Part shown: in pieces, positions 1,337-53,155 of the stretch
Layout of the letters: each line of letters opens with the position of its first letter
Position numbering within the stretch: the first letter of the stretch is position 1
DNA from: Gammaproteobacteria bacterium
Lineage (GTDB): Bacteria; Pseudomonadota; Gammaproteobacteria; SZUA-152
Direction: 5' to 3'
Assembly (NCBI GenBank): GCA_021647505.1
Contig: JAKIUN010000016.1
Span: 1 to 60,180, forward strand
DNA length: 60,180 nt
Position numbers and translations under genes: made by a program
The notes under the pieces: generated by a model
Seen by the model: the letters and a program-made list of their open reading frames with translations, nothing else
Database searches by the model: none
What the model was told of the DNA's origin: nothing

Positions 1337-1858
1337 CTATCTTCCGAAACCATGAATTTCTTTATAAGAACCTGGCGCTGATTTATGCATCAATGCCGCT
1401 TCGATTGGCCTTCCCTCCAGAGGGGTCTCAGCGAAACGAATCAGGGCATGATCATTCTGCAATAATCTTTTGATATCCTTTTGTCGCCAGTTACTCTCCC
1501 AATTCCCAATCAATGCATTCCAAACTTGGGTAATCGCGATCAATTCCGCATCCGTGAAATTCTTAATCGTTTCAGATTCAAGATTGTTCAATTCGATATA
1601 CTTCCTCATAGAATGGGAGACCACCACAAAAGGTGGGCCGCATCGAGAACAATATTGGAGTATTTTTCCCGCCTCATGACAGGTCGTACATCTGCTGTAA
1701 GCAAGAGTAGTTGCCTCTTCCGGAGAATAAGGTAGATAACCCATGGACTTGGCCTCTGCGAGAACCTGCTGGCCAACGGGGTTGGGGATGAGTAATACAC
1801 CCGCAGCCACCACTAAGACGGCGAGAAAAAGGCCAAGCAACCAAAAGCGCTTTTTCAT
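1337..1858 (-). CDS. Small membrane-anchored mono-haem c-type cytochrome-like protein
   Basis: A 173-residue protein. Residues 5-26 form one hydrophobic segment (signal anchor or uncleaved signal), placing the rest in the periplasm. Residues 57-61 read C-T-T-C-H, a covalent haem c motif; a second cysteine pair (C-S-R-C) follows ten residues later without a histidine, so only one haem is expected. A SHSMRKYIEL segment could supply a methionine ligand. It is the last gene of the minus-strand denitrification island and lies 58 bases downstream of a Vgb-like propeller gene. I infer a role as electron carrier for the island's redox proteins; the family is unnamed to me. Confidence 0.7.
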   Translation of the reverse strand: MKKRFWLLGLFLAVLVVAAGVLLIPNPVGQQVLAEAKSMGYLPYSPEEATTLAYSRCTTCHEAGKILQYCSRCGPPFVVVSHSMRKYIELNNLESETIKNFTDAELIAITQVWNALIGNWESNWRQKDIKRLLQNDHALIRFAETPLEGRPIEAALMHKSAPGSYKEIHGFGR

Positions 1859-1916: not shown

Positions 1917-2927
1917 TCACCTCAGCCATAACTTAGCGACTGCATCACCATCGAGCCGATACAGTGCATTCTTTGCTGTATCGGCGAACCAAATATTGCC
2001 TTTTGAATCAACCTTTATACCATTAGGTCGGCTTTTACCCATCTCCACCCGGATCTCCAGGAACTCTTTTCGAATGGAGTTGTATCCTCCAATCTTATTA
2101 CTGGTTCTAAATGTAAAGAAAATATCTCCATTAAACCCCATTGCCAGACTTTCGATCACACCACGATTAGGAATAGGATATGAGTCGAATCTTTCTTCCC
2201 GAGGGTAAAAGACCATCAGACTGTGCCCCTTGCGCCCACCAAACCAAATCGCGCCGGCATCATCGATAGCAATATCCGTGGGAACTTCAAAAGGTGTCGG
2301 CAAATCATACTCACGGATCGATCCATTTTTTGGGTCAAGCCTGCCAAGCTTATTTCCCTGCGTCTCCATAAACCATATAGAACCATCTCGATCAACAGAT
2401 ATTCCAGCAGGCCGGCTTGAGGGTGTAGGGATCGGATACTCCTTAAAAGTCTCCCTAACAGGATCGAATCGCCCAATTTTATTCCCATAAAATTCCGTAA
2501 ACCAGATATTCCCTTGCGCATCAATTGTAATCTTATATGGAGAGCTGTCTATTGTTGGAATATTATATTCTTTGAATGAAAGAGAGTCAGGACTGAAGAC
2601 CGCTAACTGATTTGAATCCTGCTCAGTAAACCACACCTTGCCTGTTTGGCTCACTGTAATATCTGAGGGCATGCTTTGTCGGGTAGGGATGTCATATCCT
2701 GAAAAGACATCTGCAGAGGGCTGGTAACGACCTATCCTGTTAAGATTCGATTCAATAAACCAAATATTGTCTGTTTTATAGATGGCTATACTAGTGGGCA
2801 AAGAGTAAGCCGTTGGTATTTCATAGGATTGGAAGGCATCTTCACTCCATGACAAAGAGCAAGAGAAGCCAAGAATGATAAACATAATAATGTTTGTATT
2901 TTTCACTGAGACATTCATTCCAATCAT
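1917..2927 (-). CDS. Exported seven-bladed Vgb-like beta-propeller protein
   Basis: A 336-residue protein with an N-terminal signal sequence (hydrophobic residues about 12-27). Seven repeats of about 42 residues follow, each centred on a [NKSA]-[IV]-WF core with NKIGRF-like strands, the repeat pattern of virginiamycin B lyase (streptogramin lyase) propellers. The known lyase needs two histidines, but this protein has only one histidine in the mature part, so true lyase activity is unlikely. The second in-frame ATG at 2918 is an alternative start. It is the partner of the larger propeller at 3226-4461, in the same orientation. In this setting I infer a periplasmic scaffold or redox-complex subunit rather than antibiotic resistance. 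Confidence 0.75.
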   Translation of the reverse strand: MIGMNVSVKNTNIIMFIILGFSCSLSWSEDAFQSYEIPTAYSLPTSIAIYKTDNIWFIESNLNRIGRYQPSADVFSGYDIPTRQSMPSDITVSQTGKVWFTEQDSNQLAVFSPDSLSFKEYNIPTIDSSPYKITIDAQGNIWFTEFYGNKIGRFDPVRETFKEYPIPTPSSRPAGISVDRDGSIWFMETQGNKLGRLDPKNGSIREYDLPTPFEVPTDIAIDDAGAIWFGGRKGHSLMVFYPREERFDSYPIPNRGVIESLAMGFNGDIFFTFRTSNKIGGYNSIRKEFLEIRVEMGKSRPNGIKVDSKGNIWFADTAKNALYRLDGDAVAKLWLR

Positions 2928-3225: not shown

Positions 3226-4461
3226 TTAAGAACTGCGTACGCCTCTGGAATATTTAAACCACCCTACAATGATAAATATGACAACAACAATCAGGGAAAA
3301 AATAAACCAATTAAATGAAGTTGATGAATGATCATCCACTGGCAATATCCGTTTTGAAGAGGATTTCTCAGTGGATAATTCTTGCCCACCGTTCCTCAAC
3401 AATGCATCAGTTAAGGAAAGCATTCCCAGACTCTTTGCTTCCGTATTACTTTGGGTAAACCACAGAATAGAGCGCTCATGGTCTATGACCAATTCTCCCG
3501 GCAAGCTGCTGTAGGTGGGGATATCGTACTCATAAAATACGGCGGTTGTTGGATTAAAAACGCCCACTTTATTTCCACGGTATTCCAAGAACCAAATATT
3601 TCCATCTTTATCGGCCGCAATTGAGTTTGGTGAACTTTTCGACGTCGGGATAAGTGCTTCGTCAAATCTTAAACGATCAGGATAAAAAACACCCAGCCTA
3701 TTTGCCGCTGTTTCAACAAACCACACTCTGCCGTCCTTATCAATAGCTATTTCTCCCGGGCTCGAAAAACTTGTAGGTACATCATATTCGTAGAACACTT
3801 CATCTTCGGGAACAAATTTTCCAATTTTATTTGCGTTAATATCGGAGAACCAGATATGCCCCTTAGCGTCGGCAGTTAAGCCTCCTGGTGAAGCGTTTTC
3901 AGAGGGAAGTGAATAGCCCTTGACCTTGAAACTGACAGGATCAACGCGATACAGGCTATTTTTGTTGGCGGCTAAAAACCAAATTTCGCCGTCAGGGCCT
4001 ATATATAGATCTTTCGGAATAGCATCGATAGAAAGGGCATATTTTGTAAAGTAACCATCTTCAGGTGAGAAACGCCCCAGCATATTTGGCTCTTTTACAT
4101 TTCCGGTTCCCCTGCGCATGCTAAACCAAATATCCCCACCCGGGCCTGTAATCACTTTAGAAAACCCCAGGTCACCCCATGAGGATGGGAGAGGAAATAT
4201 TTCGAATTTATTGTTCTTTGGATCAAAAACAGCTAGTTTGTTACCAATTTTTTCTGAAAACCAGACTCGCCCCGCTGCATCAACAGTAATCGACTGAGCA
4301 GAACTGAGCGCCTCAGGTAACGCCACTTCTCTGATTAGATCATTTGATGCCAGAGAAGTCCCGCCAAAGACGGCCACCCAGACAATGATAACGCTGCACA
4401 ATAGTCGGTATATACTACCTTTTGCAATGGATTCCATCAGCTTGGGACTCACCATTAGCAT
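3226..4461 (-). CDS. Membrane-anchored seven-bladed Vgb-like beta-propeller protein
   Basis: A 411-residue protein with an N-terminal signal segment (about residues 17-38, ending near SLAS), seven WF-centred propeller repeats of the streptogramin-lyase type, a low-complexity serine/lysine linker, and a C-terminal membrane helix (NWFIFSLIVVVIFIIVGW) followed by a short basic tail. The propeller is therefore held on the outer face of the inner membrane. Very few histidines occur in the propeller, which argues against lyase chemistry. It lies between the small lipoprotein (98 bases upstream) and the second propeller (299 bases downstream), probably in one operon driven from the FNR-type box at 5186. 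I infer a structural or electron-transfer-associated role. Confidence 0.75.
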   Translation of the reverse strand: MLMVSPKLMESIAKGSIYRLLCSVIIVWVAVFGGTSLASNDLIREVALPEALSSAQSITVDAAGRVWFSEKIGNKLAVFDPKNNKFEIFPLPSSWGDLGFSKVITGPGGDIWFSMRRGTGNVKEPNMLGRFSPEDGYFTKYALSIDAIPKDLYIGPDGEIWFLAANKNSLYRVDPVSFKVKGYSLPSENASPGGLTADAKGHIWFSDINANKIGKFVPEDEVFYEYDVPTSFSSPGEIAIDKDGRVWFVETAANRLGVFYPDRLRFDEALIPTSKSSPNSIAADKDGNIWFLEYRGNKVGVFNPTTAVFYEYDIPTYSSLPGELVIDHERSILWFTQSNTEAKSLGMLSLTDALLRNGGQELSTEKSSSKRILPVDDHSSTSFNWFIFSLIVVVIFIIVGWFKYSRGVRSS

Positions 4462-4558
4462 GTCATTGTTGGCTCATATCTGTAAAATTCTCCATATTCG
4501 CAGGAGGTAGTGCCTGCCTGACTCCCCTCATGGGATTGTGGTGCGCTTGCATCCATGA

Positions 4559-5068
4559 CTACTTTCCTTGATGAGCCATTTCTTTGTAATTTTTCGTGAC
4601 GGCCTCTCTATCCATATCATCTGTTTCTCCGGTAAAGTCTACCTTCCAGGAATTGGTTTTTTTATCCAAAGTCAGCGGAATAACCTCATTCACTGTATAA
4701 TGCCCACCAAAACTTGAAGCCATTTTATAGCTTATGGCTACCGTAGCTTGTGTTCCATTTCCATTTATTTCCGCCTCTCCAACTTCGACTTGAAAATCTG
4801 GCGGGTACTTTTTAACAACTTCGAGAAACTGCTCCACAATCAGTTGAGAGTGCTCAGCATCAATCAACTTAAAGGCCTCACGAGCCGGACTGGGCCCGCC
4901 CTTCAACTTTGCCTCTTCTATGTATCCATAGAACTTCTTCAAAACCTCGGCAGGGCCTTCGCTTGGAGCGGAACTTGACACGCCAGCCTGTCCACAGCCA
5001 GCTATGATGGCCATGGCGGAGATAAAAAATGCTCTCACAATAAAATAACCTATATGCTTTATTTGCAT
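4559..5068 (-). CDS. Small lipoprotein, DUF4878/NTF2-like
   Basis: A 169-residue protein with a signal sequence and a clear lipobox (I-I-A-G-C, modified cysteine at residue 25), then a serine-rich linker and a compact alpha+beta domain starting PAEVLKKFYGYIEEAK. The helix-then-sheet pattern resembles DUF4878/NTF2-like lipoproteins, which are often of unknown function. It is the first gene of the lipoprotein-propeller-propeller-cytochrome series and lies directly downstream of the best FNR-type box in the window (5186-5199), about 120 bases before its start. A binding or assembly role is inference. Confidence 0.65.
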   Translation of the reverse strand: MQIKHIGYFIVRAFFISAMAIIAGCGQAGVSSSAPSEGPAEVLKKFYGYIEEAKLKGGPSPAREAFKLIDAEHSQLIVEQFLEVVKKYPPDFQVEVGEAEINGNGTQATVAISYKMASSFGGHYTVNEVIPLTLDKKTNSWKVDFTGETDDMDREAVTKNYKEMAHQGK

Positions 5069-5257: not shown

Positions 5258-6409
5258 CTACCAAATTACCTGTGGGTAATACCAGTGTTGCATCATCCAC
5301 TTATTGTCATCAAGTAAGGGAAGTATTTCTCTATTTTTGAAATCTTCCGGGGGTATTCCCATCCTGACCCCAGAGTAGGTGTTATGGCATGAATTGCACC
5401 CCATCGTTGGAGATTTATAGTTTCCTGCATACAGTGCCCCAAATACCGTCATTGCCACCAGACTAACACTGAAAAAGGCCATAAGCTTGGTTTGATTATT
5501 CAGGGTGGGTATCTTTGAAAATAGCCCTCTAATCTTCATTAATGCGTCACTTTCCTGAATTCGAGACTCTGTCGCATCCCTGCGCTCCCTTCTGAGGTAA
5601 TAGGGGAAAATAGCCAACAGCAAAAACAGGAAAAATGGGAGATAGAAACTGAGGAATGTGGCTAGAAACCCCTCAAAATGCATATAGGGCAGGAAGAATG
5701 TCAGAACAAACCACTCAGCTGTTGGAATGTATGTACCATCCAATGGCATCGGTATTATCTCTGGATCCTGGGAGGGCATAGGCAAGTAATATGCCAGAAA
5801 ACCGATTACCAAAAGAAAAGGTAGCGTAACCATGCCATGCCTCATGATATAGCCGGGAATACCACCACTTCTTTTTCGGATTCTTGCAATGGAGTGAAGC
5901 TCTATTAACACAAGGGTAATAACCGGCAGCACAAGAACATGTGCAATAAAATTTCTATTCATGGTGAATGCATTAAGGAAAAAATCCTTTAAGGCAGGCC
6001 CAACCAAAGCGATATTGCCGACATAATTAGGCACCATCTCCATAAACCAGTATCCCCTCCACTCCCATGGAAGAATAAACCCAGTCACCAAAAAACCCAG
6101 TAGAGGTAGAAATAACAAAACTCCCGTCAACCAAAATGTTTTCTTCTCCCTGTTAAGGTAATCCATTCTCAAAAAACTTCTGATAAAGTGCAATATAATA
6201 GACACTACCAATAAAAATGCTGTCCAGCGATGCACATCCCTTATCCACGCCACAAACTCGATCTGATTGTAGATATTCTGTATGCTCGAATAGGCCTCAT
6301 TCAGGTGAGGCTTATAAAACATGGTCAAAACTAGCCCTGATAATAATTGGAGTAGAATAAGAAGAAGGGCTACACCTCCAAAAAAATGGCGCCAATTATA
6401 ACGTTTCAT
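5258..6409 (-). CDS. Cytochrome b (bc/b6-type) with fused C-terminal haem c domain
   Basis: A 383-residue membrane protein. The N-terminal 175 residues are a four-helix cytochrome b module with two haem b histidine pairs: H60 and H74, H157 and H172. Residues 229-236 (PTAEWFVL) occupy the place of the PEWY quinol-oxidation motif, followed by further membrane helices. After a cytoplasmic loop and another membrane helix (about 309-328) comes a short periplasmic tail with C-N-S-C-H at 338-342, a covalent haem c site. No Rieske protein gene is nearby. It probably passes electrons from the quinone pool to periplasmic carriers of this island. Upstream, 183 bases away, is the LivK-like gene. The fusion layout is unlike the classical bc1 complex. 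Confidence 0.85.
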   Translation of the reverse strand: MKRYNWRHFFGGVALLLILLQLLSGLVLTMFYKPHLNEAYSSIQNIYNQIEFVAWIRDVHRWTAFLLVVSIILHFIRSFLRMDYLNREKKTFWLTGVLLFLPLLGFLVTGFILPWEWRGYWFMEMVPNYVGNIALVGPALKDFFLNAFTMNRNFIAHVLVLPVITLVLIELHSIARIRKRSGGIPGYIMRHGMVTLPFLLVIGFLAYYLPMPSQDPEIIPMPLDGTYIPTAEWFVLTFFLPYMHFEGFLATFLSFYLPFFLFLLLAIFPYYLRRERRDATESRIQESDALMKIRGLFSKIPTLNNQTKLMAFFSVSLVAMTVFGALYAGNYKSPTMGCNSCHNTYSGVRMGIPPEDFKNREILPLLDDNKWMMQHWYYPQVIW

Positions 6410-6591: not shown

Positions 6592-7866
6592 TTAATGTTC
6601 CAACAGCACGAATCCTTTCTCACCTCCGCCAACCTTTGTGCCATAGATGAAAGGTCGCTTTATTGGTATACCTTCCGATGTGAATTTCGTATTCCCCGTC
6701 ACACCGTCATATCCCTTTGACTCGATCAGGGCATCTCTTACCTTAGCGCTATCCGTCGACCCTGCTGCTCTGATAGCCTCTGCCAGCAACATAAATGCGT
6801 CATAGGCCAAGGCAACAAATCGATCAGGATTTTTTTCACGTATATCTTCAATGAACTCATCCATCATGGGAGAACGGATTAGCGGCGAATAAGAGGCATA
6901 AATCAAAGAGCCGCTTACATCACCACCTTCTTTCAGGTAGTCCTCTACAAGGAGATCTTCACCACCGATGATAGGAAGGTTCAATCCGGCATTTTTGAGG
7001 CCTTTTGAAAGAAGCACTCCTTCATCCGCCCCCCCTGTAAAAATCACCGCCTGCAACGCCTGCGGACTATGCTTGATTATATTTATGACGCTTTCTAAAT
7101 TTCGCTTGGCCAAATAGGAGTCATAAGTGTCAGCCTCTACCCTTATTGTCCCACCATACTTCATGACGGCTTTCTTAAATAAAGAACTGATATCCAGTGA
7201 ATAGCTATAATCTGAAGACCCGACCAGGGCAAAGTTTGTATATCCGAGTTCTTGGATAGCGTAGTGTACAAGCCCATCAGTGGCTAACTCATCCGACAGG
7301 GCTGCGCGAAAAATGTATGGACCACTCCTCTCAATGCGCCTCCTCGAGCCGATAGACAAAAATATTGTTTTGGAGCCATTGACTTGATGAATGGGCGCAA
7401 AAGTTGACCACCCGGTAGGTGCTGAAAATATCGCAATCACTCCCTGACTGATGAGATAGGCTACGCCCTGGCTCGTTAAGCCAGGTTCGCCTTTAGTGTC
7501 AATATTTATTACTTCAATATCTCTGCCATCTATCCCACCTTCGGCATTAAAGCGTTTGGCAGCCGCCGTCACGCCGGTCAGAACATCGATGCCATAGATA
7601 GAGTCCGCACCAGTCTCTGGGCCAATGATGCCGATTTTTAATGGCCTTTCCCATGTTTTCTCTGCTTCTGAGGGAACTGCTTCTGAGGGAACTGCTTCTG
7701 AGGGAACTGCTTCTGAGGGAACTGCTTGATGAGGGACACTTGGAGAACCGTTTATTTTTTTAGTCGCTTGCGCTGCATTCTCCTCATTATTTCCCGAGCA
7801 TGAAAAAAGCACGGCCCCTAAAGTCAGCGCCAACACGATATATAAAAATTTTTGCAAGGCAGCCAT
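6592..7866 (-). CDS. LivK-type periplasmic binding lipoprotein
   Basis: A type I periplasmic binding protein of the branched-chain amino acid/amide family. I chose the ATG at 7866 (424 residues); a TTG lies two codons upstream. The lipobox is L-F-S-C near residue 23, followed by a linker with a tandem AVPSE repeat, then the two-lobe domain starting at PLKIGIIGPETGADSIYG. No LivHMGF permease or ATPase genes are present; instead it follows the DUF4340 gene by 49 bases and ends the Gld-type ABC operon. It may act as a sensor or as an accessory to that exporter. Its ligand cannot be read from sequence. Confidence 0.8.
   Translation of the reverse strand: MAALQKFLYIVLALTLGAVLFSCSGNNEENAAQATKKINGSPSVPHQAVPSEAVPSEAVPSEAVPSEAEKTWERPLKIGIIGPETGADSIYGIDVLTGVTAAAKRFNAEGGIDGRDIEVINIDTKGEPGLTSQGVAYLISQGVIAIFSAPTGWSTFAPIHQVNGSKTIFLSIGSRRRIERSGPYIFRAALSDELATDGLVHYAIQELGYTNFALVGSSDYSYSLDISSLFKKAVMKYGGTIRVEADTYDSYLAKRNLESVINIIKHSPQALQAVIFTGGADEGVLLSKGLKNAGLNLPIIGGEDLLVEDYLKEGGDVSGSLIYASYSPLIRSPMMDEFIEDIREKNPDRFVALAYDAFMLLAEAIRAAGSTDSAKVRDALIESKGYDGVTGNTKFTSEGIPIKRPFIYGTKVGGGEKGFVLLEH
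7662..7721. repeat. Four exact 15-base tandem repeats inside the LivK-like gene
   Basis: The unit CTGCTTCTGAGGGAA is repeated four times without change and followed by a decayed fifth copy. It encodes the five-residue unit AVPSE in the linker between the lipid anchor and the binding domain. Exact identity suggests recent expansion by slippage; copy number would set the tether length. Confidence 0.95.
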
Positions 7867-7915
7867 ATTCAAGATGTTTTGGCTTTTACCGTCGTCAACC
7901 AGGAAATACCCATAA

Positions 7916-8863
7916 TTACTCCAACCATTTCCCCATATTTACAATGATGCTATTTACCAGGGTTTCTTCAATGACAAACAGGTTCTCTGCCTGGTTGGTT
8001 TTTGCAAAGTAGCCTCTTCTCTTTCTATCCTTAGCGCCTATATAGAGCACTTCCGGAAGCTCTTTTTTATCCTCATAGATCGTCACAATTAAGTCAGGAG
8101 CGACGAGGCCATACGAGGCAAGGTCTGATGAAGGCTCATTGATGAAATCTTTTATTTGTGAATTATTTATTTCATACAACGACTCCAGAACCTTTTCCAT
8201 TGATGCTCTACCTATTTTTGGCTCAAGCATATTCCATTTGCCTCTGTGGTGCTCAATAACCACTCTCGCCACCCCTTTTCTTTCCACCTCAAGGCGTCTT
8301 AATTTTACAGGTTCAATATCAAGGATATTTTTATCACGTAGCGCATAAACACTTTGTGCTGCCTCTTTTTTCACATCTGAATGCACACGATAGACTTCTG
8401 GACGGCCTTTAAACATGATGTAGGAAACATTATGAGTTGGCCCCTTTTCACCAAACAAGAGAGTAATAGACTCTGCTCCTGCACTAATCCCCATTTCCAC
8501 ATCAGGTGGCGCCAAACCGAGTTCTTGTAATTTGTCGGAACTCGGTTGTGTAAACAGCGTTGCATCCTTCCTGGCTTTTACAATATTGATCAGGATCCGT
8601 TCGATGGCTTCATCATCTCCCTTCACCGTCAATGGCTGGGTCATATCCCACCCATCAGAACCACGAACAAGTTTTATCTTCTGCCCCGCGCTCTTATCAT
8701 TTATCCAAAACTCTGTTATCTCACCGATGGAATACGGCAAAAGTTTCAAGCTGGCTTCAGTAATCCGCTGATTATCTTCCGCCTGTTGATCCAGAAAATA
8801 AAAAGAACCACTCAACATAATCAGAACAAATACCCAAAAGAGTGTCTTCTTTATTAAATTCAC
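7916..8863 (-). CDS. DUF4340 domain protein
   Basis: A 315-residue protein with one N-terminal membrane helix (about residues 8-24) and a periplasmic region of repeated alpha+beta units (DMTQPLTVKGDDEAIERIL, KWNMLEPKIGRASMEKVLESLY) typical of DUF4340. This family commonly follows GldG-type genes in ABC exporter clusters. It starts with GTG overlapping the stop of the upstream GldG-like gene (GTGTGA), so translation is coupled. It presumably forms part of the membrane complex made by the three genes upstream. The biochemical role of DUF4340 is not known to me. Confidence 0.85.
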   Translation of the reverse strand: MNLIKKTLFWVFVLIMLSGSFYFLDQQAEDNQRITEASLKLLPYSIGEITEFWINDKSAGQKIKLVRGSDGWDMTQPLTVKGDDEAIERILINIVKARKDATLFTQPSSDKLQELGLAPPDVEMGISAGAESITLLFGEKGPTHNVSYIMFKGRPEVYRVHSDVKKEAAQSVYALRDKNILDIEPVKLRRLEVERKGVARVVIEHHRGKWNMLEPKIGRASMEKVLESLYEINNSQIKDFINEPSSDLASYGLVAPDLIVTIYEDKKELPEVLYIGAKDRKRRGYFAKTNQAENLFVIEETLVNSIIVNMGKWLE

Positions 8864-10428
8864 ACTCCCCGCCTCCTTTTGGCAGTTACTCCAATACCCA
8901 CCATCAGCACTAACGATGGAACAATGATCACTGACAGCCAGAAAACAAACTTTCCTTGAGTTGCTGTCAACATCACGGGAGTCAGGCCAGGCTCTTTTTT
9001 CCGTATCGATATCAACATATTTTCTTCGGCAAGCCAGTAGAGCATATTCAAAAAAAAGTCTTTATTACCGGCCAGTTTCATGTGCGTATTACTGGGGAAG
9101 TCTGAGTCGCCTGTGACGACGATTTTTCCCCATTTTTTAATGCTCTCACCCCCCTTGTCACCTTTCTCTTCATTTTCGGTATTGCCCAATATTTCTATCA
9201 CTGTTACCGATACGACATTAATCGGCCCCTGCTGGTGTTTTTCAGGGTCAAACTCCAGATTATCTTCATTGAGATCCCCCGTAATTGACCAACTGTTCTC
9301 GCTTGTTTTCGCAATGTTAAAGCTGCCTTTGCTTGGTTCTTCTCTTATATGTACAGAGCGTGCGGCGGGAAAGAAGGTTGCCACCTCAAAATCTCGGGTG
9401 ACCGGGTGCTTTTCATGGTATTCAACAACAACAGGGGTAAGATAATTTGCACCATAAACCTGACTCAGTTTGTCGATGATAAGATCACCTCCCAGCTCAA
9501 AGCCGAAGCCCGCAAGGTAATTCACCAGCCCTTCTGGAGAACCAGGATCAAGCATGAACAGAACGCGTCCACCTCGGTTTATGTAGTTGCTTACCTTATC
9601 CAGCTCTCCTTGCAAAAAGTCGACTCTGGGGCCACTTATCACCAGTACGGCAGCGTCTTCAGGAACCTGTTTTACATTGGTCAATGCCAGTTCACGAACC
9701 TTATGATTTTCCTTTTCGATGATCTCCCTGACTTGACCGTAGCCATCATTTTTCATACTGCTAATTTTCTTTTCCCCATGGCCCTTGATAAAATAAATAG
9801 TTTTTACTTCATCACTAACAAGTCTAATCATCGCATTGGTTAATCGGCTCTCTGACTCAGTACCAACCACCTCCTTCTTATCCCCGTAATTCAATAATGT
9901 GGTTCGATAGGAAGTAATTCCATATTTCACGGCCTCTGCGGGGTTTCTGTCTGGATCGACAAAACGGAAATTAAAGTTTGATGAATAATAAGAGTATTCA
10001 TTCAGCAGGTCATACATCGTTTGCCTTGTCCGCTCATCACTGCGATAAAAGGCGATGACTTCCATATCATTCTTAAGTGATTTAAGGATCTTGACGGTTT
10101 GAGGAGAGGGTGTATAGCGACTATTTTCGGTCAAATCGACTCTTACTTTGTACTTGACCGACATCACACCAATAAGAACAATTATTACCAAAAAAACCAT
10201 ACTCATAATGGCTGTGTTAAAAGCATATCGAGTTGATCGCTTGGTGATAAACCTCCTGAGTTCAGGAAAATAGGTATAAAAAAGTACCAATAACGTAAGG
10301 AGACCTATCCATATCAAGGAAAGCGGAAGGGTTCCCATTTCACCACTTATTGCGTAAACAATGCCTCCTGTGGCGATAAGAATCGGAGACAGTATTGCCA
10401 GCGGTAAAAATAATCCCCGGCCCTTCAT
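8860..10428 (-). CDS. GldG-like ABC transporter auxiliary membrane protein
   Basis: About 522 residues from the preferred ATG at 10428, which has AGGTGGTGA just upstream; two GTG codons lie just before it. There are two N-terminal membrane helices, a third near residues 70-95, a large periplasmic GldG/ABC_transp_aux region (KVRVDLTENSRYTPSPQT, later VLVISGPRVDFLQGELDKV) and a C-terminal membrane helix. In Bacteroidetes GldG works with GldA and GldF in gliding, but the same trio is widespread outside gliding bacteria. Here it is encoded between the permease and the DUF4340 protein with overlapping or nearly touching ends. I infer one exporter or mechanotransmission complex serving this island. 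Confidence 0.85.
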   Translation of the reverse strand: MKGRGLFLPLAILSPILIATGGIVYAISGEMGTLPLSLIWIGLLTLLVLFYTYFPELRRFITKRSTRYAFNTAIMSMVFLVIIVLIGVMSVKYKVRVDLTENSRYTPSPQTVKILKSLKNDMEVIAFYRSDERTRQTMYDLLNEYSYYSSNFNFRFVDPDRNPAEAVKYGITSYRTTLLNYGDKKEVVGTESESRLTNAMIRLVSDEVKTIYFIKGHGEKKISSMKNDGYGQVREIIEKENHKVRELALTNVKQVPEDAAVLVISGPRVDFLQGELDKVSNYINRGGRVLFMLDPGSPEGLVNYLAGFGFELGGDLIIDKLSQVYGANYLTPVVVEYHEKHPVTRDFEVATFFPAARSVHIREEPSKGSFNIAKTSENSWSITGDLNEDNLEFDPEKHQQGPINVVSVTVIEILGNTENEEKGDKGGESIKKWGKIVVTGDSDFPSNTHMKLAGNKDFFLNMLYWLAEENMLISIRKKEPGLTPVMLTATQGKFVFWLSVIIVPSLVLMVGIGVTAKRRRGV

Positions 10429-10430
10429 AT

Positions 10431-11210
10431 TCACCACCTTTTAGACTCCAGGCTTCGGAGGGTTAAGAAAAGAAATAGAACAATAAAACATAAGTAATAA
10501 ATGATGTCCTCCGTATCCAGAACACCCTTGGCTAAACTTGCGATATGTTCATTAATTGATAAATATGACAGGACTTGTCCAAAAGCGGGGGACACAAAGG
10601 GAACCGAATAGCTAATCAACCAGAAAAAGAAAAGGATTCCAAAGGACATTGACGCCGATACGATCTGATTTTCTGTTAGTGATGAAGTAAATATCCCTAG
10701 CGAAATAAATGCAGCACCGAGTAAGAATAAACCCAGATAGCCTGTAAGAATAGGCATAACCTCTGGCTCACCCAGGCCAAGCAGGAGAATGGGGTATGTT
10801 GCCGTCAGCAAAATCATGACTAGAAAGACAAACAAACAGGCCAAGTACTTTCCCAGCACCACATCAATGTCTTTCACGGGAAATGTCAGTAGAAGCTCTA
10901 TTGTTCCAGACTTCTTCTCTTCGGAGATAAGCCTCATCGTCAGGAGCGGTGTCATCAACAACATAATAATACTGATGTTGCCAAAAAGCGGCCTCACAAC
11001 GGTTTCGTTAATATTTAGCAGTTGATACTGCTTCGCTAACATGGGATTGACTTGCGCCTGAAAGCTGATGACAGAGAAGGTGGCGAGAAGATTGTAGAAG
11101 AAATATCCCGTGATCAGCAAGAACATGACAATGACCACATAAGCGATCAATGAGCTGAAATAAGATTTCAGCTCTCGGTTGAGGATAAGCCCGACACTAC
11201 GAACATTCAT
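10431..11210 (-). CDS. ABC-2 type permease, GldF/NosY-like
   Basis: A 259-residue integral membrane protein with about six helices and the ABC-2 pattern: an N-terminal LILNRELKSYFSSLIAYVVI helix, a cytoplasmic RLISEEKKSGTIELLLTFPV coupling segment, and a C-terminal pair of helices. It overlaps the upstream ATPase by an ATGA junction. NosY of canonical nitrous oxide reductase clusters belongs to the same superfamily, as does GldF. The adjoining GldG and DUF4340 genes favour the GldF type. It forms the pore with the ATPase encoded at 11207-12142. Confidence 0.88.
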   Translation of the reverse strand: MNVRSVGLILNRELKSYFSSLIAYVVIVMFLLITGYFFYNLLATFSVISFQAQVNPMLAKQYQLLNINETVVRPLFGNISIIMLLMTPLLTMRLISEEKKSGTIELLLTFPVKDIDVVLGKYLACLFVFLVMILLTATYPILLLGLGEPEVMPILTGYLGLFLLGAAFISLGIFTSSLTENQIVSASMSFGILFFFWLISYSVPFVSPAFGQVLSYLSINEHIASLAKGVLDTEDIIYYLCFIVLFLFLTLRSLESKRW

Positions 11211-12142
11211 GTCGATTCCTTTGTGACCAGTTTAATGAACACATCTTCAAGGCTCATCTCCATGGGTCGCATTTCTATTAAATCCCATCCATTCGTATCA
11301 ATTACAGAGTGAACGCTTTTCCTTGCTTTCTTCTCATTATCAAATGTTACAATGAAACCACAGGCATCCTTCGCGGTTGTCAGCTCTCTCTCAACACCCT
11401 TAATCTCAGTGAGACTGGAAAGCGCCTTCTCCACCTTAACCACATCTCCACTGATCCGTAAAAACATTCTTGATACACTTCCTGAGGTTAAATTTTCAGG
11501 CGTATCAACCGCAATCAGTTTCCCTTCATTAATAATGATTACCCTGCTGCACAGAAGGCTGACTTCGGGAAGGATGTGGGTACTTAAAATAACGGTATGC
11601 TTTCCTGCCAGTTCCTTGATGAGATTTCTGATCTCTTTAATTTGTTTCGGATCCAGGCCGACTGTAGGTTCATCAAGAACCAGAACCTCGGGGTCATTGA
11701 CCAAGGCCTGAGCAATCCCAACCCTCTGCCGGTATCCCCTGGAAATCGAACTTATCATTTTTTTGGATACGTCACCGAGCCCGCAATCACCCATGATCTG
11801 GCTGACCTTATGCTTTGTATCCCGGCTTGACATACCTTTTATTTTTGCCACAAAAATCAAGTACTCATCAACTCTCATATCCTCGTATAGCGGAACCCTT
11901 TCGGGTAAGTATCCGATTTTCCGGCGGACATTCAGTGAGTCCTCAAAACAGTCATACCCTGCCACCATCACCTTTCCCTTTGTGGGTGGTGAATAGCAGG
12001 TCAGTATTCTCATTGTAGTGGTCTTGCCTGCCCCATTGGGCCCAAGAAATCCCAGTATTTCGCCCTTTTCCACAGAAAAACTGATGTCGTCCAAGGCCCG
12101 GTAACCACCATAGTCTTTTGTTAAATTTTCAACGTTAATCAT
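11207..12142 (-). CDS. ABC transporter ATPase, GldA/NosF-like
   Basis: A 311-residue ATPase. Walker A is GPNGAGKTTTM (about residues 34-44), the Walker B region reads VLVLDEPTVGLDP, and the signature loop is ISRGYRQRVGIA, slightly off the usual LSGGQ but normal for the CcmA/NosF/GldA group. A C-terminal extension of about 80 residues is typical of these exporters. It is the first gene of a five-gene minus-strand operon (ATPase, permease, GldG, DUF4340, LivK). NosF performs this role in canonical N2O reductase maturation, so a maturation or export function for the NosZ-like enzyme is plausible but unproven. Confidence 0.9.
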   Translation of the reverse strand: MINVENLTKDYGGYRALDDISFSVEKGEILGFLGPNGAGKTTTMRILTCYSPPTKGKVMVAGYDCFEDSLNVRRKIGYLPERVPLYEDMRVDEYLIFVAKIKGMSSRDTKHKVSQIMGDCGLGDVSKKMISSISRGYRQRVGIAQALVNDPEVLVLDEPTVGLDPKQIKEIRNLIKELAGKHTVILSTHILPEVSLLCSRVIIINEGKLIAVDTPENLTSGSVSRMFLRISGDVVKVEKALSSLTEIKGVERELTTAKDACGFIVTFDNEKKARKSVHSVIDTNGWDLIEMRPMEMSLEDVFIKLVTKEST

Positions 12143-12681: not shown

Positions 12682-13371
12682 TTACTTCGTACTTTTTGCA
12701 CAGCGAAACCCTACGTATTGCTTGCTGTCATCTGGAATACTGCGAAGAGCGCTGGTCACTTTGGCATAACTGCTGCCTTCAAAATACGACCCTCCCCGGA
12801 GAATCGCATAACGGTCAATATAACTGTCCGTCCATTCCCACACATTGCCGGACATATCCATGACACCAAAGGGACTGGCCCCCGTTGGCCTTGATCCTAC
12901 CGCCATTGGTTTGCTTGCTGTTTCAGACGTTACCGCAGCAGATTCATCAAATTCATTTCCCCACGGGTATATCCTGCTGTCGGTACCACGCGCGGCCTTT
13001 TCCCACTCCTGTTCCGTGGGAAGCCTCTTGCCGATTGTCTTGCAGTACCCGCCAGCATCTATTTGAGAAACCCAACCTGCCGGAAAATCCCCCTCTCCGG
13101 GCTCATATTCATGATGATGACCTGGGTTTATTTTTGCATACTGGTCATTTGTCACTTCGTGTTTGTCGATCATGTAGCTTGGCAGATCAATCTCCTGCTT
13201 CGCCTCACCGTTCCCATAGATAAATTTTCCACCCGGTATAAGCACCATTTCATTATATTTTGATGCGCCATTGCTATTCTCCAGTGTCGCTTCTGGCGCC
13301 GCACTTGCAGAATGCCATACCACACCCGTCATCATAATCACCAACAATCTATTTGCTTGTTTTCTTTTCAT
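12682..13371 (-). CDS. Exported SUMF1/FGE-like (formylglycine-generating-enzyme fold) protein
   Basis: A 229-residue protein with a signal sequence (residues 1-24, ending SASA), then a FGE-sulfatase (SUMF1/EgtB/PvdO) domain: MVLIPGGKFIYG, IDKHEVTNDQYAK, RLPTEQEWEKAARG, YPWGN, MSGNVWEWT and a final RGGSY...FRCA block. The order and length match a minimal SUMF1-like domain. True FGEs oxidise cysteine to formylglycine using copper; many relatives do other chemistry or none. The active-site cysteine pair cannot be confirmed by eye. It is a lone gene with an FNR-type box about 230 bases upstream (13600). A role in modifying or assembling a copper enzyme is inference. Confidence 0.82.
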   Translation of the reverse strand: MKRKQANRLLVIMMTGVVWHSASAAPEATLENSNGASKYNEMVLIPGGKFIYGNGEAKQEIDLPSYMIDKHEVTNDQYAKINPGHHHEYEPGEGDFPAGWVSQIDAGGYCKTIGKRLPTEQEWEKAARGTDSRIYPWGNEFDESAAVTSETASKPMAVGSRPTGASPFGVMDMSGNVWEWTDSYIDRYAILRGGSYFEGSSYAKVTSALRSIPDDSKQYVGFRCAKSTK

Positions 13372-16258: not shown

Positions 16259-16329
16259 AGAAAAATTGTACGCCTTGATCGTGCAACAGGCTCATCCCCT
16301 CATCGACAATCATGGCTCTCATAAAACTC

Positions 16330-17655: not shown

Positions 17656-18342
17656 GTGAAGAAAAGAGGGGTTTTTTCCATCGGAAGCTTTGCGCTTATA
17701 CTGGTCGTTACAGTGGTGGCCGCCGCCTTTTTCACCTGGAAGACAAACTCCAATGAGCCTATTAAAGCACCAGAGGATCTTGAAGATTATCTCTTTTGGC
17801 AGGCAAAGCAATTAAATGACTTTACCCTCATTGGAGCCAACCGACAGACCCTCAACCTTGACAGTTTAAAGGACAAATGGAGCTTCGTATTTTTTGGCTA
17901 TATACAGTGTCCGGATGTCTGCCCGATGACCCTTGGAGTACTGGCTTCTGCCTTTGCTGATCTCAAACAAAATCCGGACATTTATGAGGAAATACAGGGT
18001 ATTTTCGTATCGGTCGACCCGCAGAGGGATACCCTCGAACTTCTAAAGGAGTATGCATCCTACTTCGGCAGCGAGTTCTCAGGATTTACGGGTAGTACAG
18101 AACAAATAGATGCATTTACACGGCAAATGGGCGCCTTGTACGCCATACACGACGAAGAGCCCGGGGAAGACCCGGACGCCTACGTGGTCACCCATAATTC
18201 AGCCGTATTTCTCGTTGACCCCCGCGGTAGGCTCTATGGGCGGTTCCCACCACCTCATGATGCTCAAAACATTGCAGACACTTTCATCAAGCTCCGCGCA
18301 TTTTATAAAGAGCAGGATGACAAACGATGGGGTTTTTTCTGA
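17656..18342 (+). CDS. Sco1/SenC family copper chaperone
   Basis: A 228-residue protein starting at GTG with GGAAGG upstream. One N-terminal membrane helix (about residues 8-26) anchors a thioredoxin-fold domain in the periplasm. The copper ligands of Sco proteins are all present: C85-P-D-V-C89 and H180 in VVTHNSAVFLVDP. Sco proteins deliver copper to, or reduce cysteines of, CuA sites in cytochrome oxidase and in N2O reductases. With the NosZ-like gene 3 kb away, the natural reading is CuA assembly for that enzyme. It is followed after 97 bases by a TlpA-like gene. Confidence 0.92.
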   Translation: MKKRGVFSIGSFALILVVTVVAAAFFTWKTNSNEPIKAPEDLEDYLFWQAKQLNDFTLIGANRQTLNLDSLKDKWSFVFFGYIQCPDVCPMTLGVLASAFADLKQNPDIYEEIQGIFVSVDPQRDTLELLKEYASYFGSEFSGFTGSTEQIDAFTRQMGALYAIHDEEPGEDPDAYVVTHNSAVFLVDPRGRLYGRFPPPHDAQNIADTFIKLRAFYKEQDDKRWGFF

Positions 18343-20479: not shown

Positions 20480-21439
20480 TTAATATCCCTGTTTAACCTT
20501 TGCGGCGACGTCTTGTGGCCTCTTTCTCAGGCCGCCATCAACATATTTACCACCCACTAGGTTACCACCATCACGCCCTGCGAGTTCTGCTTCCATGAGC
20601 TCCTGGGCATCGGCAAAGTCTTCACTGTCCGCTACATTCAAGGGATTCACATCACCCGCAATCGGCTTGAATGTAGACTTTGGATTCAGATACTCATCCA
20701 GATCCTTGGGGCTTTTTACATCCTGCATAGCGCGAATCCAGGCGACAATATTCCAGATATCCTGATCCTGCATATAGTTGCCCCACGATGGCATGGATGA
20801 AGAAAGAGAAATCGCTTCACCACCACCTTTGATAGAAATGAACAGTTCAAGATTGCTCTTCTTGTTCATATACTTACCGGCAACCAAGGTTCTCGGTCGC
20901 GGATCCAGGTCGATGGCCACTGGCCCATCACCCTGTAACATCCAGCCATGACAGGCGATACAGTATGAATAATACCACTGCTTTCCTTCATTCGGGTCGG
21001 CACCAGGAACACGGGTTTCAGTAAACGTGGGTGACCAGTTATTCGTCCATTGATTATAAATTTCCTCGCCTTTTGCCGGTTCCTTCACCCGATCCCACAG
21101 CTCCGTCCTTCCTGTACCTCCACCGCCATGTCCACCGTAACCACTTTCACCCTCCGTCAGGGTCGTCTTGTCGGTTCGCTTACCAACGCCCGTCAAGTAG
21201 TCAAACGGTGCAACACCATAGGTGCTGCCCGCCTTACCCATAGCCATATCCATGGCTTCCTTTTCATAGGCCTTCGAAGCCTTTTCCAAAGCCTCGTCAC
21301 TCAGGGTGGGACACTCAACCTTCGCACCCTGTGCTTTGCACCGCTTCTTTTTTTCCGCAGCGAAGGCAGACGAACCTGCCCACACGGCGACCAAACCTGC
21401 CATTGCGATCACGCATATTTTCAGATACTGATTCTTCAT
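20480..21439 (-). CDS. Periplasmic mono-haem cytochrome c associated with the NosZ-like enzyme
   Basis: A 319-residue protein from the ATG at 21439, with GAGG upstream; a GTG lies one codon earlier. Signal peptide: residues 1-28, ending AFA-A. A long N-terminal extension rich in Lys, Glu and Gly (GGHGGGG near 103-109) precedes a class I cytochrome domain: C161-I-A-C164-H165 (full-length numbering) and axial Met in SSMPSWG. The C-terminal tail of about 80 residues is also unusual. It is 157 bases downstream of the NosZ-like gene on the same strand, so it is the obvious candidate electron donor to that enzyme, analogous in role to NosC. Confidence 0.88.
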   Translation of the reverse strand: MKNQYLKICVIAMAGLVAVWAGSSAFAAEKKKRCKAQGAKVECPTLSDEALEKASKAYEKEAMDMAMGKAGSTYGVAPFDYLTGVGKRTDKTTLTEGESGYGGHGGGGTGRTELWDRVKEPAKGEEIYNQWTNNWSPTFTETRVPGADPNEGKQWYYSYCIACHGWMLQGDGPVAIDLDPRPRTLVAGKYMNKKSNLELFISIKGGGEAISLSSSMPSWGNYMQDQDIWNIVAWIRAMQDVKSPKDLDEYLNPKSTFKPIAGDVNPLNVADSEDFADAQELMEAELAGRDGGNLVGGKYVDGGLRKRPQDVAAKVKQGY

Positions 21440-21596
21440 CACTCATTTCCTCGCTGCTAAAAAAGGCCTTATCTCAACCACGGTTTCGGCGGAGTCTCGA
21501 ATAAAGCACTTTTTCCTCCCTAGGAGCCTGAGCCAGCCCAAAATTCAAGGGTTGACCCAGCTATTCATAAAGACTTCACACTGCATGAAGAAAGAG

Positions 21597-23354
21597 TTAT
21601 AGGCTCTTTACACGCTCGGCTATCGTTAACTCGCCTTCTTGCACCAGGCCTGGGAGTCTTTGTGCCTCTTCATAATCACCGACGGCCAGACTGGATGCCT
21701 CTTTGTTGGGATCATCCACAAAGAACGACCCTCTCATTTCCAAATGCAGGGGGCCGCAGAAGTGCTGACAGAAGATCGCATACTCACCGGCGATATCCGC
21801 AACAAATTCAGTGACCGCCGTCACTCCGCGCGGAGCAGCCAGATTAGTCCTCAATCCATAGGGACCATAAATTGTAAAGCCCATGGTGACGTCCGGGTTC
21901 TTCGTAATACCTGCTGCCTTGTCGATATTCGTCACAAACAACCGCACCTTATCGCCCTTGTTCACCCTGATCTGACGAGGGATATAGCCATAACTGAAGG
22001 CCTTGATGTGAATTTCCTTGACGCCATCAACGACCCGGATTCCCGGCTGCTCATTAGACTTGGGCATAAAATACCGTTTCGCCTTGGCCTTATTATGAGG
22101 ATAGATGGCCGGTGTCAAGCCAGCCTTGAGCAAGCCGCCTTTCTCTGCCTGACCCATGGTCCAGTCCTTTATTTGATAGGCATAGATAGTCTTGGCATTG
22201 TGCGGCTCACCATCCACGGGGATAAGCTTTAAGGTCTTGCCATAGGTGGGGCTATCCTCTCGTGCATCCCACATTTCGAAGTTTACCGGATAGACTACCC
22301 CCGTAGGACTGAACAATCCTGTTGAGAATTTATTTAGAGCAATGACATACTTGTTGTCTGCACTAATGGCGATATGTCCGGTTCTGTAGTGGGTTGGGAT
22401 CTCATCGACCACCTCAAGCGTTTTGAGGTCTATCTTTACATTGGAATCCGCCACAAAACAGCTTTGATAGGCGTACTTGGAAGTCAGCCCTTCTGGACTA
22501 TCCTTCCCCGGCTCATAGGTGCCACCGTCCTTATCATAGACATCCATCACCGTGTGGAGCGGGCCGGCACAGGTCGGCAAGACCTTTTTAACCGCCAGCG
22601 TTTCGATATCAATCACCGTCATCGTCGCCGACAGCTTGTCGCTCACCAAAGCCACCGTGCCCTCGGGTATGACGTCAACGCCGTGTGGATTTTTTCCGAC
22701 GGGAATTGCTTTAATAAACTTAAAAGGGTTAGCGGAAAAGACACCCACCGTTGAATGATAATAATTACCGGCAAAGACATATTTTCCCTTCTTGCCGACA
22801 TCCAGGTAATCCGGTGCGCTCGGCGCCGGCCCCCAGTCAATTATTTGCGTCTTGCCGGTGGAGATCTCGGTCTTTGACATCTTGCCGGTATACTCACCAG
22901 TTCCGAACAGATACTTGCCATCCGTACTCAGCGCAATGTGGTGGAGACCAAAGGGAAAAGGAAGCGCAATCAATCTCTCCAACATGCCGGTTTGTAAATT
23001 TATTTCTCCAATAGTGTTGGCACCCTTATCATTGACATAAAGATATTTTCCATCCGGCGTGCCATTTTTGTTACCTGCGGGAGAACCACCGTAAACAACC
23101 TCATGCAAATCTACGCCGACAGAAATATGCCGATAGGTTTTCATGCTTGGAAGCCCTATCACCGCCACCTTACCATTTAGACCACCCGCGTTATAGAGCA
23201 GCATTGGATCATGTAGCGGTGTATCTTTATTGTCTACTTCTGCATTTTGCCACGATGGCACCTGTTCCTCGGCACTTGCTGCCGCCCCTCCCCCAACTGC
23301 CAAACAAACTGCCGAAAGAAGCTTCACTATGAGAAACTTGTGATTGCAATGCAT
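21597..23354 (-). CDS. nosZ: Divergent nitrous-oxide reductase (NosZ-like), Sec-exported
   Basis: A 585-residue protein with a Sec signal peptide (no twin arginine), ending near ASAEE; AGGAGG precedes the ATG. Residues 50-440 form the seven-bladed propeller and 445-547 the cupredoxin domain. CuZ-type histidines can be aligned to known NosZ: DLHE (H84), LHH (H138/H139), NPHG (H224), GPLHT (H267), RTGH (H327), EPH (H385). The canonical second His of DxHH is Glu85. The CuA motif C529-x3-C533-x3-H537-x2-M540 is intact, but the usual upstream His of the THGF motif is Met491 (VTMGF). The LNKFS segment also matches NosZ. Homology is clear; N2O as substrate is likely but unproven. Confidence 0.85.
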   Translation of the reverse strand: MHCNHKFLIVKLLSAVCLAVGGGAAASAEEQVPSWQNAEVDNKDTPLHDPMLLYNAGGLNGKVAVIGLPSMKTYRHISVGVDLHEVVYGGSPAGNKNGTPDGKYLYVNDKGANTIGEINLQTGMLERLIALPFPFGLHHIALSTDGKYLFGTGEYTGKMSKTEISTGKTQIIDWGPAPSAPDYLDVGKKGKYVFAGNYYHSTVGVFSANPFKFIKAIPVGKNPHGVDVIPEGTVALVSDKLSATMTVIDIETLAVKKVLPTCAGPLHTVMDVYDKDGGTYEPGKDSPEGLTSKYAYQSCFVADSNVKIDLKTLEVVDEIPTHYRTGHIAISADNKYVIALNKFSTGLFSPTGVVYPVNFEMWDAREDSPTYGKTLKLIPVDGEPHNAKTIYAYQIKDWTMGQAEKGGLLKAGLTPAIYPHNKAKAKRYFMPKSNEQPGIRVVDGVKEIHIKAFSYGYIPRQIRVNKGDKVRLFVTNIDKAAGITKNPDVTMGFTIYGPYGLRTNLAAPRGVTAVTEFVADIAGEYAIFCQHFCGPLHLEMRGSFFVDDPNKEASSLAVGDYEEAQRLPGLVQEGELTIAERVKSL

Positions 23355-23985: not shown

Positions 23986-24825
23986 ATGAATTTTACGAAC
24001 GGCTCCCTACTGCTCTTCATCACCTTGCCCCTCCTGACCTTCAGCACCGGATGCGAGAGAAACACAGGAAATTCATCGGCTATTAACGAAGAGACAGAAG
24101 GACTCTCCATTGGAAGAATGAGGGTTGCTATCTGGCCTGAATACGACGACCCCAGCCTGCTGGTTATTTATGATGGGAAGTTTGATGAAGATTCCCGATT
24201 TCCCATTAAAACGAGCTTCCTAGTCCCTAAGGGCGCCATTATCAGCGATGCTTGCAGCCTTTCACATGAAGGACAGCATTTTTGCCAGCTTTATAAGGTC
24301 TTTGACCGAGGGGCATACGATGAAGTACGCCTTTTACTGCCTTACCCAAATTTTTACCTCAGTTTCCACACTCCGGCATTCTCAGGGATAGACAGACAGC
24401 GAGAATTTCCATATCAGATTAAAGCCAATCATCCCATAAGATTTATGGAAATAGACATCCAGCAGCCCTTGCGGAGCAGTGAATTCAAGATAACACACGC
24501 AAATAATTCATCATTGACCCATGAGGTTCCTGCAGAAAGCGAGGTAAAGGGATTCAATCATTTCTCTTACAAACTGGAGAATGTCGAGAAAGACAAGGAA
24601 ATCACCTTTACGATTAACTACATCAAGAATGACCCAAAACCATCAGTCGACATTAAGTATTCACGCATGGGTGAGAAAAATACCTGGGAATCGCCGTATA
24701 AAACTCAAAAAAATGTTAAAAAGTTTGTATATATATTAGCCGGAAGCGGAATTTTCGGCATATTGGCTGCCGTCAGTGGATTTATATGGCTGCGAAGAAA
24801 AAGACGGCGCAAGGAACTGGCATGA
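23986..24825 (+). CDS. Lipoprotein with C-terminal membrane helix, unknown family
   Basis: A 279-residue protein with a signal sequence and lipobox F-S-T-G-C (cysteine 23), a periplasmic beta-rich domain of about 200 residues starting MRVAIWPEYDDPSLLVIYDG, and a C-terminal membrane helix (about 245-268) with a strongly basic end (RRKRRRK). I do not recognise a named family, although similar WPEYD-containing proteins seem to accompany cytochrome c maturation genes. It overlaps the CcmH-like gene by an ATGA junction and heads a six-gene plus-strand operon. A chaperone role for haem or copper insertion is inference. Confidence 0.72.
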   Translation: MNFTNGSLLLFITLPLLTFSTGCERNTGNSSAINEETEGLSIGRMRVAIWPEYDDPSLLVIYDGKFDEDSRFPIKTSFLVPKGAIISDACSLSHEGQHFCQLYKVFDRGAYDEVRLLLPYPNFYLSFHTPAFSGIDRQREFPYQIKANHPIRFMEIDIQQPLRSSEFKITHANNSSLTHEVPAESEVKGFNHFSYKLENVEKDKEITFTINYIKNDPKPSVDIKYSRMGEKNTWESPYKTQKNVKKFVYILAGSGIFGILAAVSGFIWLRRKRRRKELA

Positions 24826-25268
24826 AAGAAATCCTTAGCCGAAGGGCCTTTCTGTCACTCGCCTTTTATTTTACCCTGGCTTGCAGCTTGATCTCACCCC
24901 ATGCTTATGCACTAACCGTAGCGGAAGTCGTCAAGGATTTGGCCTGTCCCTGTGAATGTCCGTTAATCCTCGAAGACTGCAACATGAGTTGTGGCCTTGA
25001 ATGGAAGGAGGAGGTAGGTGAACAAATTAAAAAGGGGATGAGCAAAGATCAAATTATGGAATACTTTATTGGGAAGTATGGAGAAAGTGCTCGCCTGACC
25101 CCCATTCAGAGAATACAAGGGAAAACTTACCAATATACACGGAGTTTCGATACAGTAGACTGGGTACTGTTGTGGGCAGGCATAATCGGATGGATGGCGC
25201 TAATGTTCTTGGCCGTCTATATAAGCATCAGAAAACTTTTTTTTAAGAGCCCTAAAAAACCCGTATAA
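24822..25268 (+). CDS. CcmH-like thiol protein with unusual cysteine pattern
   Basis: 148 residues from the ATG at 24822, which overlaps the previous stop (ATGA). It has a signal sequence (to about residue 30), a short domain LTVAEVVKDLACPCECP and a C-terminal membrane helix (about 115-138). The helical KKGMSKDQIMEYFIGKYGE segment matches CcmH/NrfF apocytochrome-binding domains. The family's usual LxCxxC motif is replaced by C42-P-C44-E-C46 plus C53 and C57 (EDCNMSC), five cysteines in 16 residues. That could bind a metal such as copper or thiol-link to an apoprotein. It sits in an operon with three other redox-fold genes. Confidence 0.8.
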   Translation: MKEILSRRAFLSLAFYFTLACSLISPHAYALTVAEVVKDLACPCECPLILEDCNMSCGLEWKEEVGEQIKKGMSKDQIMEYFIGKYGESARLTPIQRIQGKTYQYTRSFDTVDWVLLWAGIIGWMALMFLAVYISIRKLFFKSPKKPV

Positions 25269-25300
25269 CTCCAGAAAGATTGACTGCATAAAAGGCACCC

Positions 25301-51891: not shown

Positions 51892-51903
51892 AGATGACGC
51901 AAA

Positions 51904-51968: not shown

Positions 51969-51985
51969 GAAACATTGGTACCGAT

Positions 51986-52738: not shown

Positions 52739-52739
52739 C

Positions 52740-53140: not shown

Positions 53141-53155
53141 AACACTGAGGTTTAT

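Follow-up and report, generated by a model that had tools for sequence, protein, structure and literature searches.

Known routes of electrons to N2O reductase

A nos-linked route from quinol to a periplasmic N2O reductase is said to have been described by Hein et al. in 2017. According to PMC11102522, electrons reach N2O reductase by way of bc1 and cytochrome c, possibly with the participation of NosR; in an alternative route, the Nos proteins of Wolinella are predicted to relay electrons that come from menaquinol. He et al. (Nature 2025, as cited in PMC13122619) introduced L-NosZ, an N2O reductase of the lactonase type that makes up clade III. There is also precedent for joining cytochrome b to a cytochrome c domain, in the Rieske/cytochrome b complex described in PMC12954380.

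The protein considered here, cytB1, is encoded in a stretch of 60,180 nucleotides from a gammaproteobacterium (contig JAKIUN010000016.1 of assembly GCA_021647505.1; the whole stretch is called the window). cytB1 shares with the bc1 and b6f complexes a b6-type four-helix haem-b domain, a histidine spacing of 14/15, subunit-IV-like helices and a Glu-Trp loop, and is homologous to solved b6 and bc1 chains by profile and by fold. It differs from both in having no linked Rieske protein, in forming its own clade together with the b6 proteins linked to L-NosZ, and in carrying haem c on the same chain; from b6f it differs further in that the position of the haem-ci Cys in the first transmembrane helix is Phe or Tyr (18/18 aligned sequences). 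The known cytochrome b–c fusion likewise carries its haem c on the cytochrome b chain but belongs to a Rieske complex, whereas cytB1 has no Rieske protein and a short mono-haem tail of about 50 residues. As in Wolinella, a nos-linked route would lead from quinol to a periplasmic N2O reductase; a Rieske/bc complex and NosG/H serve there, whereas here the protein is a cytochrome b that has haem c fused to it and no Rieske partner. ExtP (NF040969), the b6-like protein of selenite/tellurite operons, is the second-best named match of cytB1 and the best of its sister b6 protein (see below), but the scores (127.5 and 168 bits) lie under the cut-off of 290 and the operon is different; cytB1 as an ExtP-type selenite cytochrome is ruled out. 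By analogy, cytB1 most likely works like a bc-type quinol:cytochrome c oxidoreductase, yet it lacks the Rieske protein that marks that family. Coverage of the literature was partial and absence from print is not claimed; within it, no recognised description of a Rieske-free cytochrome b with L-NosZ was found.

Architecture and conservation of cytB1

The cytB1 reading frame is intact (383 aa, ATG start, no internal stops). Residues 8–174 match Pfam Cytochrome_B (PF00033, E 2.5e-29), and no C-terminal cytochrome b domain of Pfam is listed for the protein; the b6-type domain spans residues 1 to about 180 and is followed by subunit-IV-like helices bearing the Glu-Trp. The haem-b histidines are H60/H74 (14 apart) and H157/H172 (15 apart), the PEWY-like element reads T-A-E232-W233-F, in which only the Glu-Trp of PEWY is retained, and the haem-c motif CNSCH lies at residues 338–342 (C338-x-x-C341-H342). 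The earlier note had placed four haem-b histidines, a PEWY-like segment and a C-terminal CNSCH on one chain, and sequence, Pfam match and invariance agree on this. The four histidines, the Glu-Trp and the CxxCH are invariant in all 18 orthologues of an alignment of 20 loci plus the window, from which three loci were dropped (L031 and L032, cut by contig ends, and L033, with a masked stretch), and remain so in 23/23 full-length orthologues after five were added. This invariance shows that the motifs are not due to chance, and a chance haem motif is thereby ruled out. Met372 and His375 near the C terminus are likewise invariant; His375 is matched by H218 in the sister haem-c protein IVc (17/17) and, given this counterpart, is a candidate for the second haem-c ligand.

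Against solved cytochromes b, the cytB1 family profile matches b6 (E 1.3e-38) and bovine cytochrome b (profile positions 10–278, E 4.7e-23). With the NCBIfam model for cytochrome b6 (NF002990), cytB1 scores 130.2 bits, under the curated cut-off of 325.

Hydropathy and loop charges are consistent with a topology of seven membrane helices that brings the haem-c tail to the side of the Glu-Trp loop. With helix limits set by hand, mean net charge runs from +1.2 to +4.5 in the presumed inner loops and from -3.7 to +0.8 in the presumed outer ones (18 sequences). By comparison with b6 and subunit IV, the side bearing the loop and the tail is presumably the outer one. The structure was predicted twice, from 18 and from 23 sequences, with a mean pLDDT of 62 and mostly below 50 in the haem-c tail; owing to this modest confidence, no distances from haem c to the quinol site were taken from the models. 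A fold search with the first of these modest-confidence models returned cytochrome b chains, many of them over about 290–320 alignment columns.

Relatives of cytB1 were found at 20 loci in a scan of the genome collection (42–68% identical in the best segment), in Beta-, Gamma- and Deltaproteobacteria, Rhodospirillaceae/Thalassospiraceae, Nitrospirae and others. Among 57 genomes of close relatives, a full-length match occurs only in the window's own genome, and six other genomes of the same genus score at most about 82 bits, the level of an ordinary bc1. Such patchy occurrence is as expected of horizontal transfer or repeated loss. A further kind of fusion was seen at 9691–13012 of locus L009 (G000:C60), where two tandem genes encode cytochrome b fused with ferredoxin-like and further C-terminal domains; one of them matches HdrA2 at its end, oxidase-like and SCO-like genes adjoin, and relatives occur in G070 and G069.

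L-NosZ and the shared gene cluster

The partner enzyme scores 789 bits with NCBIfam NF052460 (cut-off 700, profile positions 1–480 of 480) and can be aligned with solved N2O reductases. Strict conservation across 16 L-NosZ sequences extends to ten His, two Cys and two Met, among them the residues of the Cu-A site motif C-x3-C-x3-H-x2-M. On these sequence features, the protein that had been called NosZ-like is clade III L-NosZ, and N2O reductase activity is predicted for it. Residue 491 is Met ('DVTMGF') where known NosZ has the His of 'DVTHGF', and Met stands there in 16/16 sequences. That His is the first Cu-A histidine of known NosZ, and clade III may be distinguished by an unusual set of Cu-A ligands.

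Table 1. Genes and gene remnants of the cytB1/L-NosZ cluster in the window
Feature	Position	Strand	Remarks
cytC4, mono-haem cytochrome c (CTTCH)	1337..1858	-	conserved cluster member
Vgb-type beta-propeller b	1917..2927	-	
Vgb-type beta-propeller a	3226..4461	-	
Decayed IVc scrap	4458..4558	-	truncated, internally deleted, frame-shifted; preceding b6-like gene gone
LP11, lipoprotein-like	4559..5068	-	follows cytB1 or L-NosZ in related clusters
cytB1	5258..6409	-	b6-type cytochrome b, subunit-IV-like helices, haem-c tail
Periplasmic binding protein (Peripla_BP_6)	6592..7872	-	conserved cluster member
DUF4340 protein	7916..8863	-	conserved cluster member
GldG-like ABC auxiliary protein	8860..10437	-	
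ABC permease	10431..11210	-	
ABC ATPase	11207..12142	-	
FGE-sulfatase (SUMF1-like) domain protein	12682..13371	-	recurs beside cytB1 in many loci
SCO1/SenC copper chaperone	17656..18342	+	recurrent beside L-NosZ
cytC1, mono-haem cytochrome c	20480..21442	-	adjoins L-NosZ; conserved cluster member
L-NosZ, clade III lactonase-type nitrous-oxide reductase	21597..23354	-	NF052460; C-terminal Cu-A-like cupredoxin domain
Cytochrome-c/copper assembly-like module: CcmH, SorB-like, thioredoxins, DsbD-like	23986..27851	+	recurrent

In the window, cytB1 and L-NosZ share a strand at a distance of 15 kb, and further genes of the cluster lie between the two or next to them (Table 1). Four other loci (L095, L096, L097 and L105, the last with its L-NosZ cut by the contig end) keep one order on one strand: L-NosZ, LP11, b6, IVc, two Vgb propellers and cytochromes c, then ABC ATPase, permease, GldG-like protein, DUF4340 protein, periplasmic binding protein and cytB1. 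The set recurs in L094, where it is interrupted by additional genes and by an SCO gene in inverted orientation. In a further arrangement (L014/L101, L016, L017, L107 and L114), LP11, b6, IVc and the propellers come after cytB1, and L-NosZ lies elsewhere or was not found. In the L-NosZ cluster of L098 (G071), a NosD-like beta-helix joined to a cytochrome c domain (12582–14048) stands between b6 and IVc.

The window holds several other genes of note. An ABC transporter with a PhnE permease and a putative selenate-type binding protein lies inside the cluster (13811–17205, minus strand), and a reading frame that we read as transposase-like (19407–19910, minus strand) stands between the two cluster halves and may explain their split arrangement. 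A molybdopterin oxidoreductase operon of three subunits (49009–54130, plus strand) reached the cut-off of no model; we presume it to be similar to the sulphite dehydrogenase SoeABC.

The propellers of the window match the Vgb/streptogramin-lyase family, well under the cut-off of the true antibiotic lyases, and no haem motif is flagged in them. A propeller partner had been suggested as a possible electron acceptor; propellers are indeed present in the cluster, but nothing was found that marks them as electron carriers, and they were set aside in this role.

Co-occurrence of cytB1 and L-NosZ extends beyond single loci. In the window's phylum, with presence set at E <= 1e-60 for both, the two occur in the same 3 of 398 genomes, and with the window's own genome excluded in the same 2 of 397 (Fisher p 1.3e-5). 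Among the 21 genomes with cytB1, 16 have an L-NosZ match above 500 bits, 11 of the 21 above the cut-off of 700 bits; G074 is a seventeenth, with the gene cut off by the contig end, and three carriers (G058, G062 and G076) show no L-NosZ match above 100 bits. Among the 295 genomes of the phylum of G067 (Nitrospirae), L-NosZ is found in 8, cytB1 in 7 and both in 5; L-NosZ occurs without cytB1 in G476, G651 and G706, and cytB1 without L-NosZ in G075 and G628. Four of these seven cytB1 genomes were originally found via cytB1, and with them removed (291 genomes) both occur in 2, cytB1 alone in 1 and L-NosZ alone in 3 (p 7e-4). Two of the three genomes with L-NosZ only carry a divergent L-NosZ (34–35% identical to the window's) and the third has it in contig-end pieces; gaps in draft genomes may explain part of the exceptions. 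Distances between cytB1 proteins correlate with those between L-NosZ proteins in 16 genomes (r 0.75, a value reached in 0 of 10000 permutations), the species tree not being controlled for. The link between cytB1 and L-NosZ is strong, yet not absolute.

Search for a Rieske partner

A profile search found no Rieske domain (PF00355) on the 60-kb contig of cytB1, which bears out the earlier observation that no Rieske gene lies nearby. A search elsewhere had been advised, and it returned four PF00355 matches in the own genome, all on other contigs. As read from the sequences, with no database assignment, the match on C81 presumably belongs to a normal bc1 complex, that on C64 to a small NirD-like protein adjoining a nitrite-reductase-like gene, and those on C97 and C83 adjoin what we take to be arsenite-oxidase-like genes.

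The reading in the earlier note would have fallen had close relatives invariably come with a Rieske protein as part of a normal bc complex, and this is not what was found. In two of the 21 carrier genomes cytB1 has a Rieske match on its contig (about 5.5 kb and 77 kb away), and both of these matches adjoin a separate, ordinary bc1 cytochrome b and not cytB1; many cytB1 loci lie on short contigs, which limits the search around them. Some Rieske match is present in 19/21 cytB1 genomes, and there are none in G066 and G071, both of which carry L-NosZ and cytB1 in draft genomes that are possibly incomplete. As a control, 29 loci with cytochrome b in relatives were screened, and 28 have a Rieske-like motif nearby. 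A simple Rieske motif pattern gave no hit over the cytB1 loci, but the pattern is incomplete: it missed L127–L129, where the profile finds a Rieske domain, and the profile results were therefore used.

The sister unit and its probable loss in the window

Most clusters also carry a separate b6-like protein and a subunit-IV/haem-c protein (IVc). The sister b6 has a Cys (Cys32) at the haem-ci position in 19/19 aligned sequences; IVc is a subunit-IV protein with a haem-c tail akin to that of cytB1 (17 aligned, including the IVc of L095), in which the P and W of PEWY are kept in 17/17 and the E in all but one. The sister b6 occurs in 17 of the 21 cytB1 genomes and is missing in G000, G062, G066 and G075.

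A tree built from 66 N-terminal domains gathers the 18 rows of cytB1 in one clade and the 19 rows of the sister b6 in another, and unites the two in a single clade (100/98) apart from bc1 and the other sampled Rieske-linked rows; the rest of the tree consists of 4 Rieske-linked b6 rows, 7 others and a selection of 18 from the bc1-type rows found, and placement is unsure for one long-branched Rieske-linked b6 row. From this joint clade, the Rieske-free lineage appears to be split into a fused form without the haem-ci Cys and a split form with it. The separate clade and the lack of a linked Rieske protein rule out cytB1 as an ordinary bc1 subunit.

Neither a sister b6 nor an intact IVc was found in a search of the own genome. 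The IVc profile there finds cytB1, one chance-level match (E 0.2) and a broken match at 4463–4567 (E 3.6e-4, two stops), which lies in the roughly 100 bp between neighbouring genes. Three-frame translation of this scrap gives pieces of the IVc haem-c tail in two frames, and 17/17 intact IVc proteins match it at E up to 10 (best 2e-5). It lies between LP11 and the first propeller, exactly where L014 has its b6/IVc pair. These results indicate that the pair was most likely once present in the window and then deleted; cytB1 and L-NosZ stayed intact.

A proposed route from quinol to L-NosZ and its alternatives

We consider it likely that cytB1 acts as a quinol:cytochrome c oxidoreductase without a Rieske protein, being the membrane subunit that oxidises quinol in a module dedicated to L-NosZ. 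The observed basis consists of the architecture, the conservation, the lack of a linked Rieske gene, the cluster and co-occurrence, the sister relation and the deletion scar; from homology to bc complexes we infer quinol oxidation, the direction of electron flow and the identity of the acceptor. Quinol would be oxidised at an outer-side site of cytB1 bordered by the Glu-Trp loop and the cd1 segment. The haem c on the tail of cytB1, which lies on the outer side too, would receive the electrons and hand them to the mono-haem cytochromes c of the cluster (cytC1, cytC4), from which they would reach the Cu-A centre of L-NosZ. The two b haems would provide a cross-membrane path to the inner side, and no Rieske protein would take part. 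In most relatives the sister unit (b6 with the haem-ci Cys, plus IVc) stands beside cytB1, and in the window, after its probable deletion, cytB1 would act alone. No NosR-sized FMN-binding protein was found in the own genome, where the two matches to the family lie in frames of 223 and 270 aa. Counting against the proposed role are the PEWY motif, of which just half is retained, the genomes that have one of cytB1 and L-NosZ without the other, and the bc1 complex of the own genome.

cytB1 travels with the L-NosZ gene and is therefore probably a dedicated electron feeder for this enzyme. The earlier note had suggested that cytB1 may be the quinol entry point for the NosZ-like enzyme; the identity of L-NosZ, the co-occurrence and the conserved cluster support the pairing, and the flow of electrons between the two is deduced. 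As the own genome has a complete bc1 elsewhere, cytB1 would be a dedicated route and not the sole possible outlet for quinol.

This bc1 complex also leaves room for a role in maturation, in which electrons from cytB1 would build or re-activate copper sites (e.g. by reduction of copper or Cu-Z) and bc1 would feed turnover. bc1 could feed the same cytochromes c, and many genes of the cluster are of an assembly type (SCO, ABC/GldG, DUF4340 and, in G071, the NosD-like beta-helix with cytochrome c). However, two cytochrome b units and at least two cytochromes c, as most clusters have, would be much for maturation alone, and in G066 and G071, which pair L-NosZ and cytB1 with zero Rieske matches in possibly incomplete drafts, a bc1 feed is not in evidence; maturation as the role of cytB1 is unlikely.

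Retention of the PEWY Glu-Trp and of the cd1 region might instead point to an ordinary Q-cycle in which cytB1 uses a Rieske protein encoded elsewhere, such as that of bc1, and the 19 carrier genomes with some Rieske match could supply one. Against such borrowing stand the linked Rieske genes, which lie only beside separate bc1 genes (2/21), the two carriers with none (G066 and G071) and the clade that cytB1 forms with its sister, and we hold it to be very unlikely. It is highly improbable that cytB1 runs in reverse, from cytochrome c to quinone, or is a vestige decaying after loss of the sister unit: that unit did decay next door, but cytB1 is intact with every invariant residue kept, and L-NosZ is intact too.

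Beyond the proposed dedicated oxidoreductase, we tentatively raise the possibility, itself rather doubtful, that L-NosZ organisms have a Rieske-free bc complex, a heterodimer of cytB1 (fused, no haem ci) and b6/IVc (split, with the haem-ci Cys), in which a tethered haem c would replace the mobile Rieske protein; the window would then hold its minimal, single-chain half.

Implications for clade III N2O reduction

N2O is a strong greenhouse gas, and reductases of clade III have lately been recognised as a sink for it; the electron supply of these enzymes decides the energy gain of the hosts and the conditions under which they work. If the proposed role is true, NosR/bc1 and NosGH would be joined by a third kind of electron supply for nos systems, a dedicated quinol route without Rieske protein, and its genes would serve as markers for finding complete L-NosZ systems. 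It would also provide a natural setting in which to test whether a bc-type site can oxidise quinol without a Rieske protein, and the deletion in the window would offer a ready-made experiment on which sister unit is dispensable.
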